Origin: Thermotoga profunda AZM34c06
GTDB lineage: Bacteria > Thermotogota > Thermotogae > Thermotogales > DSM-5069
Assembly: GCF_000828675.1 (NCBI RefSeq)
Contig: NZ_AP014510.1
Span: 2,003,413-2,067,412 of the forward strand
DNA length: 64,000 nt
Direction of reading: 5' to 3'
A program made the translations under genes and the position numbers. Positions 4,482 through 17,350 of the stretch are shown in pieces. The notes under the pieces were generated by a model, which was not told the DNA's origin, made no database searches, and was given only the letters and a program-made list of their open reading frames with translations. Position 1 is the first letter of the stretch; every line of letters starts with the position of its first letter.

Positions 4482-5837
4482 TCAATCTATCACAACCTTC
4501 TTAACAGGTTCGGGAAATTTCAGCACTTCAAAACCCTTTCTGCCCATTAGAGAATATGTAATCCTCTTACCAAGTTCTACACCCGGTTGATCGTAAGGAT
4601 TGATCATTAAGAGATCCCCCATCAAAGCAGTTGCAAATTCATAATACATGAAGAATTGACCTATATCATATGCATTTATCGTTGGAAAGATAATTCTCAT
4701 ACTAGGTCTTCCATTTGAAGCCAATGCCCTTTCTGTTCCTGTGAGCTCACTCTTTAGAAGATCTGCGAGTTTCTTTCCACCGAGATAAGATATTTCATCA
4801 TTTTCATGAATGGTTGGAATGAGTATATCTCTATCAAATCTTTCAACTTCAAGGAATGTTATAGTTTTATCGTCTGGTCCCTCATTATAAAGTTGAATCT
4901 GAGAATGTTGATCGACCACACCAAGCGCCTTTATGGGTGTCAAACCCTCATTTACTATTTGCCCATCTAAGGAATATTTCTTTCCCAGACTCTCTGCCCA
5001 AAGTTGTCTAAACCAATCGGCGAGCGAAAAGAGTCTGTTGGAATAAGGCATCATCACACTGATATTTCTACCTTTTTTCTTATGCAAATAATGACACGCT
5101 GCCATCATAGCCGCTGGATTTTTTTCTATATTCAAATCTGCACATTTGAGATACGCATCTTTTGCACCATCGATCAATGCCTTTATATCTACACCACACG
5201 CCATCGCCGGCAGAAGACCCACAGGTGAAAGGACGCTGAACCTTCCTCCAAGATCTTGGGGGATATCCAAAGCCTGTATTTTTTCATTTTTAGCTATTTG
5301 ACGCAACAACCCTTTTCTTGGATCTGTCGTGAATATTATATGTTCAGCCGGGTTCAAGCCTCTGATTTGCAAAAGCCCACGAATTACCTGATAATGTGCA
5401 AGACATTCCGCTGTAGAACCAGACTTTGATATCACATCAAAAAGAGTTTCACGTGGATCGATCTCATCAAGTACTGCAGCTGCTTGATCGGGGTCGACAT
5501 TTTCAAGGAAGAATATTCTCAGATACCCACTTCTCTCCTGCTTGGTCAAATAATTCCAATCTGGTGGTGTCAAAGCATTTGCAAGCGCTACAGCCCCCAG
5601 GCTCGATCCACCTATACCTATAACGACTAAATTGTTGAAAGACAATACCCATTGCCTTATATCTTCAACTGAATCCATATAACTCCTGTCAAAAATGACG
5701 TTGACAAATCCAGGTCTGCTTTTTACAACTCTCTCAACAGATTTTGTAACTTGATCTCTCACAGAAGCGAATTCTTCTTCACTTATACCACCCTTTGTAT
5801 TCGGTTCAAACATGAAACTGAGATCGAATCGAAGCAC
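4482..5837 (-). CDS. pgi: Glucose-6-phosphate isomerase
   Basis: Interconverts glucose 6-phosphate and fructose 6-phosphate in glycolysis. The 451-residue length fits the short bacterial form. Visible family blocks are VVIGIGGSSLGA, DVISKSGSTAE (phosphate-binding SIS loop), PQDLGGRFSVLSPVGLLPA (the GGR signature), and QLWAESLGKKYS with the catalytic Glu region. The gene starts at GTG 5837, 5 nt after a G-rich site. It is preceded by apt with a 12-nt gap and appears to be read from the apt promoter. Confidence 0.96.
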   Translation of the reverse strand: MLRFDLSFMFEPNTKGGISEEEFASVRDQVTKSVERVVKSRPGFVNVIFDRSYMDSVEDIRQWVLSFNNLVVIGIGGSSLGAVALANALTPPDWNYLTKQERSGYLRIFFLENVDPDQAAAVLDEIDPRETLFDVISKSGSTAECLAHYQVIRGLLQIRGLNPAEHIIFTTDPRKGLLRQIAKNEKIQALDIPQDLGGRFSVLSPVGLLPAMACGVDIKALIDGAKDAYLKCADLNIEKNPAAMMAACHYLHKKKGRNISVMMPYSNRLFSLADWFRQLWAESLGKKYSLDGQIVNEGLTPIKALGVVDQHSQIQLYNEGPDDKTITFLEVERFDRDILIPTIHENDEISYLGGKKLADLLKSELTGTERALASNGRPSMRIIFPTINAYDIGQFFMYYEFATALMGDLLMINPYDQPGVELGKRITYSLMGRKGFEVLKFPEPVKKVVID

Positions 5838-5849
5838 GATATCCCCCCC

Positions 5850-6362
5850 TCAATAGGAGATGACTGTCTTAACTGGATACTCGGTGAGCTTTTTTCTTGG
5901 CTCAAGATATGTCAATTCTATCAGAAAACACATACCTACAACATCTCCACCAGATCGCTGAACAAGTCTTGCAATCGCACTGGCTGTGCCACCTGTTGCC
6001 AAAACATCATCCACAACAATGACTCTCTGTCCACTTTGAATAGCATCTGAATGCATTTGAAGCTGTGCTGTACCGTATTCAAGATCATATTCTATAGAGG
6101 TTGTTTCATAAGGCAATTTTCCTGGTTTTCTGATTGGTACAAAACCTTTCTGAAGTTTATATGCAAGCGCTGCACCAAAGATAAACCCTCTTGCTTCAGG
6201 AGAAACTATCAGATCAAAGTCCCAATCGAGAATAGTTTTTGCCATCTCATCAACTGCCGTGTGAAATGCCTTTGGGTTTTTGAGTAAAGGCGTGACATCC
6301 CTGAAAATGATACCTTCAATGGGAAAATCTGGGATATCTCTTATGAAATTCCTCAGATCCAT
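5850..6362 (-). CDS. apt: Adenine phosphoribosyltransferase
   Basis: Salvages adenine to AMP with PRPP. The 170-residue protein has the type I PRTase PRPP motif [14 protein letters not shown] and the family's N-terminal [20 protein letters not shown] and [13 protein letters not shown] blocks. Length is normal. It is the first gene of the apt-pgi-hyp-coaE unit and has its own near-consensus promoter just upstream. Confidence 0.96.
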
Positions 6363-7413: not shown

Positions 7414-8326
7414 GATACCTCAAAGCGTCCTCAAATATTTTTAAGATCAAATCATCATAAGAATATCCCGCTGCCTGCGCCATCTTGATGATATCAGAAT
7501 AATTCGGTGTTAACATGGGAAGTGAATTAACTTCAAGAAAATATATATCGTTTTCCTTCACTCTCAGATCCATTCTCGCATAATTTCTAAGACCTAAAAC
7601 CTCAAATGCCTTTAAAGCATAATCTTTGATCTTTCTCTCTAAATCTTCATCGATTTGTGCAGGACATACATATCTTGTATGATCACCATATTCGTGCTTG
7701 ACTCTATAGGAATAGAACCTTTCCAACCCATCTGGCAACGTGGAGAAATCTATTTCTAAAATCGGCAGAACCTCACCTGCCAGTATACCCACGCTGAACT
7801 CTCTTCCATCTATGAATTGCTCCACAAGTGCCGGTTGTTTGAATCGTGTGTGTATATCTCTGACCTTTCTCACCAATGAATCATAATCTCGAACAACGGA
7901 ATCCGCATCTAACCCTTTCGCACTCCCTTCACACGATGGTTTTACAATAGCTGGATAAAATTGAATCTCTGGCACTTGTTCTTTGATATCTACACTTATA
8001 AACGATGCTGTTGGTATACCATAGTATGAAAGAATTATCTTTGTTTTGACCTTGTCTATACAGATGGCATGCGCTTGTGAAGTAGAACCAGTGTACGGTA
8101 TCTTCAGAAGTTCGAGTATTACTGGAACGTGAATTTGTTTTGAAGCAGTTGACAAATTAAAAACCGCATCGAACATAACTATTTTTTCAAAAAGATTATC
8201 CTCAAATGCAATCAGTTGCACTTGATATCTCTTCGAGAGTACATTATAAACCGATTGAATCATCAGTTCTCTTGCTTCATCGAGATTTGATTTGTCATAC
8301 ACCACAGCGACTTTCAATCGATTCAA
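7403..8326 (-). CDS. Ddl-like ATP-grasp ligase of unknown substrate
   Basis: The 307-residue ATP-grasp protein resembles D-alanine--D-alanine ligase: KPSCEGSAKGL and EQFIDGREFSVGIL in the ATP-grasp core, and MDLRVKENDIYFLEVN at the Mg-binding end. It lacks the Ddl N-terminal GGxSxEhxVS motif. The loop that in Ddl reads NTSPGMTxHS reads NSLPMLTPNYS here, so the acceptor site differs. I infer a ligase that activates some amino acid, not the cell-wall Ddl. It overlaps the B12-protein gene by 4 nt and sits in an operon with an opine-dehydrogenase-like protein. Confidence 0.8.
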   Translation of the reverse strand: MNRLKVAVVYDKSNLDEARELMIQSVYNVLSKRYQVQLIAFEDNLFEKIVMFDAVFNLSTASKQIHVPVILELLKIPYTGSTSQAHAICIDKVKTKIILSYYGIPTASFISVDIKEQVPEIQFYPAIVKPSCEGSAKGLDADSVVRDYDSLVRKVRDIHTRFKQPALVEQFIDGREFSVGILAGEVLPILEIDFSTLPDGLERFYSYRVKHEYGDHTRYVCPAQIDEDLERKIKDYALKAFEVLGLRNYARMDLRVKENDIYFLEVNSLPMLTPNYSDIIKMAQAAGYSYDDLILKIFEDALRYHER

Positions 8327-15875: not shown

Positions 15876-15946
15876 CTACAGCGCTCCTTGATATGGCAAA
15901 ATCATTTAGAATTATAGCATCTGATAGTCCAATGAACCCTCATGCT

Positions 15947-15994
15947 CGACATCGTCGACAAGCTCGACAAAATTTGGACAGCCTCAACAGTTGG
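15947..15994. repeat. 48-bp direct repeat, copy 1, flanking the AAA+ ATPase gene
   Basis: This matches 17181-17228 at 44 of 48 positions in the same orientation. It contains TCGACA-like hexamers at 9-bp steps followed by TTTGGACAGCCTC. It starts 5 nt after the AAA+ gene stop. No third copy was seen in the window. Confidence 0.9.
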
Positions 15995-15998
15995 AATA

Positions 15999-17153
15999 TC
16001 AAGCATTTTTGATATACCTGAACTTTCCAGACATCATAATCAAGCTGTTTCTCTTGATCAAGATCTTCTTATTCAGTAATTGTTCAATAATGGAATACGC
16101 CGTTGTTCTTTTCATACCAGAGTCTCTAAGAACTTCAACTGCTTTGTCCCTGGGTCCCTCAAAATTTCTGAGTCTATCCAGAGCCAACTTCTGGTTGTCA
16201 GTTAGAAATAATTGATCAGCATAGTATTCTTTGATAATCTTATCTATCGTACTGAGTATGTGCTTTCTCTCCAGTTTTGTTTCATTTACATTTTCAAAAA
16301 CCGTTTTGTTCATTATCCATATTGCGTCCCTCGGGTTTCCATCGGAAAAATCTGCGGCAATATCAAAGACATCGTTCTGAATGATCTCTATATAGTTAGA
16401 GAGTCTTTTTACAAGAAGTTCTTTTATATCACTTTTGTTCAAAGGACTGAGAAAAACAATGTCCTTGAAGATATTTTCAAGATTCCCAGATTCATTCCAC
16501 CTGAGTCTATCAAGACCATATTCTCTATAGATACTATACGGCAGTGAAAGAATGACTACAAAATTATCAAAGATCAATTCCTTTTTAAGGCTGTCAAGAA
16601 TTCTCAAAACATCCTCTTTTTTCTCCTTATCAAGTTCATCAACAATTAGTGCAAACTTTCCCTTTACATTAGTCACTAACTGGATCAACTCTCTTAGGCT
16701 CTCTTTCGCAGCATAGAAATTGAATCTTGGAATCTGATTTTTTTGAATGTTAAAATTTGCTGAAGCGACCATAGAAAATCCCAAGGAAAAACCTTTGATG
16801 ATCGAGACCTCCTCACTTAAACGATTTGCTATCTCTTTCGCTTTTTGAGATATCTTGGGTTCATCTTCTAAAGATTTTGAAAGATTATAGACCAGGTCGT
16901 ACAGAATACTCTCCATGGATTCTCTGAGCGAAATATTAATCATCCTTATAAAAACATCTTTTGCTCTAACAAAATTCAACACCGTCGATTTTCCAATTCC
17001 TGTTTCTCCTGCAACACCATATATGCCAAAAGGCTGGTATAAAGCGATCTTGTTCAAAGACTCGATTTCTCTCTCCCTGTTGACAAGATACCTTTGATCA
17101 TGAAAATCAATTGGTTTGTCCATCAAATAGTTCAAAAGCTCACTCAATGGCAT
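15999..17153 (-). CDS. Archaeal-type AAA+ ATPase with C-terminal winged helix
   Basis: The protein of about 384 residues has a YLVNREREIESL start, Walker A GVAGETGIGKST, Walker B FALIVDELDKE, a sensor region VVILSLPYS and a winged-helix-like C-terminus (GMKRTTAYSIIEQLL). It resembles the ATPase_2/Orc-like group common in Archaea. ATG 17153 follows GGAG by 8 nt; longer starts up to TTG 17204 run into the flanking repeat. The role is unknown. Because near-identical repeats sit 4 nt after the stop and 27 nt before the start, the gene and its flanks look like one cassette. Confidence 0.8.
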   Translation of the reverse strand: MPLSELLNYLMDKPIDFHDQRYLVNREREIESLNKIALYQPFGIYGVAGETGIGKSTVLNFVRAKDVFIRMINISLRESMESILYDLVYNLSKSLEDEPKISQKAKEIANRLSEEVSIIKGFSLGFSMVASANFNIQKNQIPRFNFYAAKESLRELIQLVTNVKGKFALIVDELDKEKKEDVLRILDSLKKELIFDNFVVILSLPYSIYREYGLDRLRWNESGNLENIFKDIVFLSPLNKSDIKELLVKRLSNYIEIIQNDVFDIAADFSDGNPRDAIWIMNKTVFENVNETKLERKHILSTIDKIIKEYYADQLFLTDNQKLALDRLRNFEGPRDKAVEVLRDSGMKRTTAYSIIEQLLNKKILIKRNSLIMMSGKFRYIKNA

Positions 17154-17180
17154 ATCATTCACTCCATTCAGATAATTCAT

Positions 17181-17228
17181 CGACATTGTCGACAAGCCCG
17201 ACAAAATTTGGACAGCCTCGACAGTTGA
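17181..17228. repeat. 48-bp direct repeat, copy 2
   Basis: Same orientation as 15947-15994, with four differences. It includes the perfect 10-bp palindrome TTGTCGACAA. It lies just upstream of the AAA+ gene start on the minus strand and about 120 bp from the divergent glycosyltransferase gene, so it could also be a binding site for regulation of either gene. Confidence 0.9.
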
Positions 17229-17350
17229 TCAATACTGAAAAAATTATATCACTTTCCATGGTATAGACCCGATGACCAACTCAAAAAGGATTTTCATAAT
17301 AAATGTAGAAATCTTATATAAAGACGATAATAATCTTAGGAGTGTTGACA

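Follow-up and report, generated by a model that had tools for sequence, protein, structure and literature searches.

Within the window, the whole stretch of 64,000 nucleotides of the Thermotoga profunda AZM34c06 genome that was analysed, a single gene for an AAA+ protein with an Orc1/Cdc6-like predicted fold lies between two direct repeats, each an array of five short sites. On balance, we favor reading this arrangement as a horizontally spreading, single-gene Orc-like cassette of Thermotogota, whose protein would bind the arrays and regulate its own gene, and which would be gained or lost by recombination between the arrays. These observations suggest a kind of element, tiny and either mobile or self-regulating, that was not previously described; the searchable literature held no earlier description of such a unit.

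The window gene (15999-17153, minus strand, 384 aa) begins at an ATG at 17151-17153, and the repeats occupy 15946-15993 and 17180-17227. They are in direct orientation, as the earlier note had described, and identical at 45 of 48 positions rather than at 44, while the spacings, which had been given as 4 nt after the stop and 27 nt before the start, measured 5 nt from the stop codon to the downstream repeat and 26 nt from the upstream repeat to the ATG. Read in the sense of the gene, the repeat is TGTCGA-N3-TGTCC-N6-TGTCGA-N3-TGTCGA-N3-TGTCGA, i.e., five TGTC-type hexamers at 0, 9, 20, 29 and 38 bp; the hexamers at ~9-bp steps and the palindrome (TTGTCGACAA) that had been pointed out are thus both present. 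In 100 shuffles, 0.00 occurrences of the joint pattern of the pair were expected by chance. The features of the locus are the following:

15999-17153, minus strand: AAA+ ATPase with a C-terminal winged helix and an Orc1/Cdc6-like predicted fold, 384 aa
17180-17223, minus strand: upstream five-site array (sites at 0, 9, 20, 29 and 38 bp), within the 48-nt repeat 17180-17227
15946-15989, minus strand: downstream five-site array, within the 48-nt repeat 15946-15993, 5 nt past the stop codon
16983-17009, minus strand: Walker A, GETGIGKST, residues 49-57, in invariant alignment columns and forming the P-loop in the model
16623-16640, minus strand: Walker B region, DELDKE, residues 172-177, in invariant alignment columns
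16002-16214, minus strand: C-terminal winged-helix domain, approximately residues 314-384, with helices and wing strands in the predicted structure
16071-16109, minus strand: predicted recognition helix, RTTAYSIIEQLLN, residues 349-361, whose residues covary with the array motif
17243-17248, minus strand: possible -10 box, TATAAT, upstream of the window array, proposed from the sequence

An AlphaFold2 model of the protein (mean pLDDT 84.1, pTM 0.79, 11 sequences; residues 118-142 unreliable) presents a AAA+ domain and a C-terminal winged helix in the Orc arrangement. The nearest PDB structures are archaeal Orc1/Cdc6 proteins (2qby_A, Z 18.2; 1fnn_A, 18.0; 2v1u_A, 17.3), which cover residues 1-384 with a high rmsd, 7-10.6 A, that we ascribe to domain orientation; two of the best of these matches are DNA-bound structures. 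Next, at Z 13-15, come structures of TnsC, NLR and ATPase_2 proteins. For the Orc/ATPase_2-like protein with a winged helix proposed in the earlier note, this predicted structure bears out the AAA+ domain and the C-terminal winged helix; in Pfam, ATPase_2 and AAA_16 both matched below their cut-offs and a TrmB-type winged helix matched weakly. The Orc1/Cdc6 sequence model TIGR02928 (curated cut-off 181.3 bits) gave no match to the window protein at E<=0.1, 15.7 bits for clade B (one side of a deep split, A and B, in the protein tree) and nothing above cut-off in the window genome. Hence, the protein resembles Orc by its predicted fold, yet it is not classed as an Orc1/Cdc6 member. Among the PADLOC defence-protein models, the window protein had no match and clade B only weak winged-helix matches. 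The dN/dS values, 0.04-0.24, indicate that the gene is under purifying selection.

Homologues of the gene were found in 36 of 103 Thermotogota genomes and, in a scan of 84,980 species, in Thermotogota only; the phages, plasmids and viral contigs searched held no homologue, although thermophile plasmids may be under-sampled there. In relatives, where the earlier note had proposed a search for the 48-bp repeat, we found the array-gene-array layout at many loci across the phylum. When the five-site framework was applied, arrays were present on both sides of 33 of the 38 intact homologues, with near-identical site spacing, the exceptions being G054 (none), G006, G022 and G100 (upstream only or decayed) and G020 (downstream partial). 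A copy-by-copy direct-repeat comparison of both flanks also detected the pair in nearly all copies. Intact units hold one gene between the arrays and encode no recombinase or transposase. Conversely, most pattern matches lie beside this gene family (26 of 35 for class A and 12 of 13 for class B, with zero for reversed-pattern controls), and most genomes with an array have the gene as well (Fisher p=3e-7). With the layout kept phylum-wide and the arrays mostly flanking the gene, the two outcomes that the earlier note had set against its own proposal, a repeat present only here and a dispersed repeat unrelated to the gene, are excluded.

Control genes and the nearby DUF4143, DUF234 and PF09820-type ATPases lack a specific array pair, and in view of these neighboring families we rule out the pair as a general trait of island ATPases, the strong scores in L051, L055 and L044 stemming from dispersed repeats. 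Separately, we observed that the DUF4143-type ATPase has, in its promoter region, an array of its own, of TTCGATAAA-like units (L037, ~7750-7860; L041, ~5450-5560; L068, ~5750-5870), which in L039 and L042 persists beside the unit where this ATPase is deleted. G034 lacks the gene, and at L063:6736-9779 of that genome a pair of perfect arrays encloses two other ATPases in its place, one of DUF234 type and one of DUF4143 type, in what looks like an exchange of content between arrays.

Within a common framework, the arrays fall into three motif classes: most of clade A has GTCGA, the f11 genomes have GTCGG and clade B has GTCAC. Where the motif is GTCGA, the residues of the predicted recognition helix are R-T/S-T-A-Y-S/D; they are R-T-T-S-Y-S for GTCGG, which in f11 coincides with an A-to-S change in the helix, and R/K-Q-T-x-Y-T for GTCAC. 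Motif class matched helix residues in all 37 copies (24 GTCG, 13 GTCAC) with no exception. This covariation is strong in pattern but represents few independent events, given the single deep A/B split on the tree; from it we infer binding of the array by the protein. Where the two arrays of a unit differ, the core is largely spared, with 12 of 280 core versus 31 of 160 spacer positions affected (p=1e-6; core positions were defined from the consensus). In f11, whose proteins are nearly identical, arrays within one genome are more alike than they are to the arrays of sister genomes, pointing to concerted change such as array-by-array recombination or a one-array intermediate would give.

On the protein tree, families are mixed, with 14 changes of family label where 6 would suffice, and a copy from family f1 (G002a) is nested inside family f2; dS between G002a and G023, a cross-family pair, is 0.32, similar to the 0.29 between G000b and G002b of the same genus. 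In several pairs of copies the shared DNA is hardly larger than the unit: G072 and G079 have in common only a 1.32-kb block, 95.8% identical, which ends within ~20 nt outside the arrays between unrelated flanks; for G088 and G050 the common block measures 1.35 kb and is 96.7% identical; and in G026a and G030 homology runs almost exactly from array to array. L043 and L039, on the other hand, are 98% identical over 5.3 kb, a larger island block. No target-site duplication was detected in the junctions compared, the repeats are direct, with inverted scores at background for most copies, and no Tn7- or Mu-like ends in inverted orientation were found.

Empty sites with one copy of the repeat, a further search proposed in the earlier note, were found in G090 versus G087/G089 and in G012 versus G042. 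G090 lacks the gene; there, one array has on its left the left flank of the filled G089 and G087 sites and on its right the right flank of the filled G087 site (757 identities and 42 mismatches on the right side). The two flanks of the G042 unit meet in G012 at a single array, which is identical over its 44 nt to the G042 downstream array. G027 has a solo array whose left flank is common to a filled site in G002, a nearby stretch matching the right side of that site, and the window genome itself (G000) carries three further solo arrays. No gene remnants were detected at the solo arrays tested. At the window's own site in G001, by contrast, the genes that flank the unit stand side by side, separated by 200 nt that contain no array, and in G088 the left flank of the G050 site is present without an array, the right flank being rearranged and the G088 flank repetitive. 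One-array absence and whole-unit absence thus both occur at orthologous sites, and the cases without a leftover array, G001 and G088, imply that movement need not use a resident array. A search for empty sites with Mesotoga-type flanks was swamped by dispersed repeats. Taken together, the layout, the transfer, the differing flanks and the one-array sites give good support to the movable single-gene unit with iteron-like sites first envisaged.

One solo array of the window genome (L069:3323-3366; G000:C1:850323) lies 116 nt upstream of cmr4 in a type III-B CRISPR locus, and a solo array of clade B type occurs in G008, which lacks the gene (L191:5029-5073). At L031:4840-4910 (G000:C1:800840-800910), the clade B copy has a truncated left array joined to a start remnant of a PF09820-type ATPase gene, which also follows downstream. 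In G007, the gene is split, and its two halves, each beside an array, lie on opposite strands at a distance of 54 kb (L045:4799-6297 and L046:4355-5664), with IS200/IS605-like genes at the break. Copies broken by stops or frameshifts (L059:5319-6497, L061:1608-2353, L062:5238-5477 and L122:5480-6621, in G016, G051, G028 and G089) speak for turnover of the gene.

In the reading that we favor, the Orc1/Cdc6-fold AAA+ protein would recognize, through its predicted winged helix, the five-site array present in one copy at each gene end; with the upstream array in or next to the promoter, it would probably control its own expression, an oligomer perhaps holding both arrays together during autoregulation. 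Recombination between the direct arrays would remove the gene and one array, possibly as a circle, leaving a solo array behind; the unit would reach other places by the same reaction in reverse or by being transferred entire, with both arrays. The unit may be self-mobile, its movement being driven by the protein or only by host recombination, and solo arrays would also arise from plain homologous recombination between direct repeats of 45-80 bp. Searches of plasmids, phages and viral contigs yielded no free circle, plasmid or viral copy of the unit.

The position of the arrays relative to the promoter also bears on a possible, if rather doubtful, alternative, namely that the gene is a stationary autoregulator with an operator array on each side, which represses itself by looping and spreads by ordinary island transfer, solo arrays being RecA-type deletions or operators of other genes. 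Among homologous copies, the upstream array usually ends just 5' of a TATAAT-like box, and in most copies other than the window's the -10 box lies between array and gene, a position by the promoter that favors this alternative; in the window, where the candidate TATAAT lies beyond the array, the array would fall in the transcript leader. The lack of a mobility gene in the unit, the movement of several units inside larger island blocks such as L043/L039 and the solo array upstream of cmr4 in the window genome fit this alternative as well. However, the downstream array, which begins 2-19 nt past the stop codon across copies, lies close to it in a way that looping does not need, the homology of recent copies stops at the arrays, and for most solo arrays (G034b, G000:822, G012, G090) the position is not that of a promoter serving one common gene.

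We consider it improbable that the unit is a selfish micro-replicon of ~1.2-1.3 kb, in which an Orc/Cdc6-like initiator with its own arrays would excise as a one-array circle, replicate or persist, and reinsert at arrays or elsewhere, GTCG and GTCAC groups coexisting while two of one group do not. All seven genomes with two copies (G000, G002, G026, G035, G087, G089 and G091) carry one from clade A and one from clade B (p about 0.006 under random pairing; the clade B copy of G089 is broken), a pairing that would fit mutual exclusion of like units, or else the existence of two old orthologous groups.

Still less credit is due to an orc/cdc6-like initiator-origin module, a minute integrated replicon whose arrays would be origin recognition boxes and whose protein would load replication factors. 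The full-length structural matches to archaeal Orc1/Cdc6, two of them DNA-bound, agree with it, as does the likewise pairing of archaeal orc/cdc6 genes with adjacent recognition boxes (PMC3528665), and the A and B pairing resembles incompatibility, but two ancient orthologous groups would yield the same pairing. Against it stand the Orc1/Cdc6 sequence model, far below its cut-off, the absence of a GC skew switch at the unit (window, 16 kb) and the lack of a plasmid or circular form in the searches above; moreover, 67 of the 103 genomes lack the gene, which cannot, therefore, be the normal initiator. Lastly, a fortuitous or common dispersed repeat flanking the gene by accident, as solo copies away from the gene might suggest, is ruled out by the shuffles, the association with the gene, the reversed-pattern controls and the conservation of the layout across the phylum.

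If the favored reading of a spreading, array-binding cassette is right, the unit is among the smallest gene units that have recognition sites of their own at either end, and bacteria possess an Orc/Cdc6-shaped, array-recognizing protein whose inheritance is like that of a mobile element. Nature here supplies a series of proteins and arrays, with three motif classes and a helix code of one or two residues, in which specificity, autoregulation, excision and origin function are directly testable.

Compared with known systems, the unit recalls TnsC, TniB and MuB of Tn7/Mu-type transposons in its AAA+ fold (Z about 13) and in its repeated TGTC sites, which resemble transposon ends, but its ends are direct instead of inverted and it has no transposase gene. 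The analogy, and it is only that, with LTR-type elements lies in the promoter-bearing direct terminal repeats and in the solo repeats where the gene is missing, although reverse transcriptase and integrase are absent and the terminal repeat is a predicted protein-recognition array. As in iteron-Rep plasmid modules, direct-repeat sites stand beside the gene of a winged-helix DNA-binding protein, with probable autoregulation, yet here the protein is a AAA+ protein, the unit is chromosomal with arrays at both ends, and no plasmid form was found. Archaeal ATPase_2 proteins (2qen, 2fna) and the DUF234/DUF4143 ATPases have a related fold and are often found in the same islands, the DUF234/DUF4143 neighbors differing in their lack of a specific array pair. 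Of the systems described so far, the archaeal orc/cdc6 gene and its adjacent recognition boxes come nearest; there, origins occur in newly acquired regions and diversify with the initiator, as in the haloarchaeal oriC families (PMC3528665). The unit differs from archaeal orc1/cdc6 in its bacterial host, its direct arrays of 9-bp-spaced hexamers on both sides and its distinct sequence family, and origin activity is here only a possibility; it shares with them the AAA+ and winged-helix fold (predicted here), a gene beside repeated sites, initiator-specific motifs and a location in newly acquired regions.
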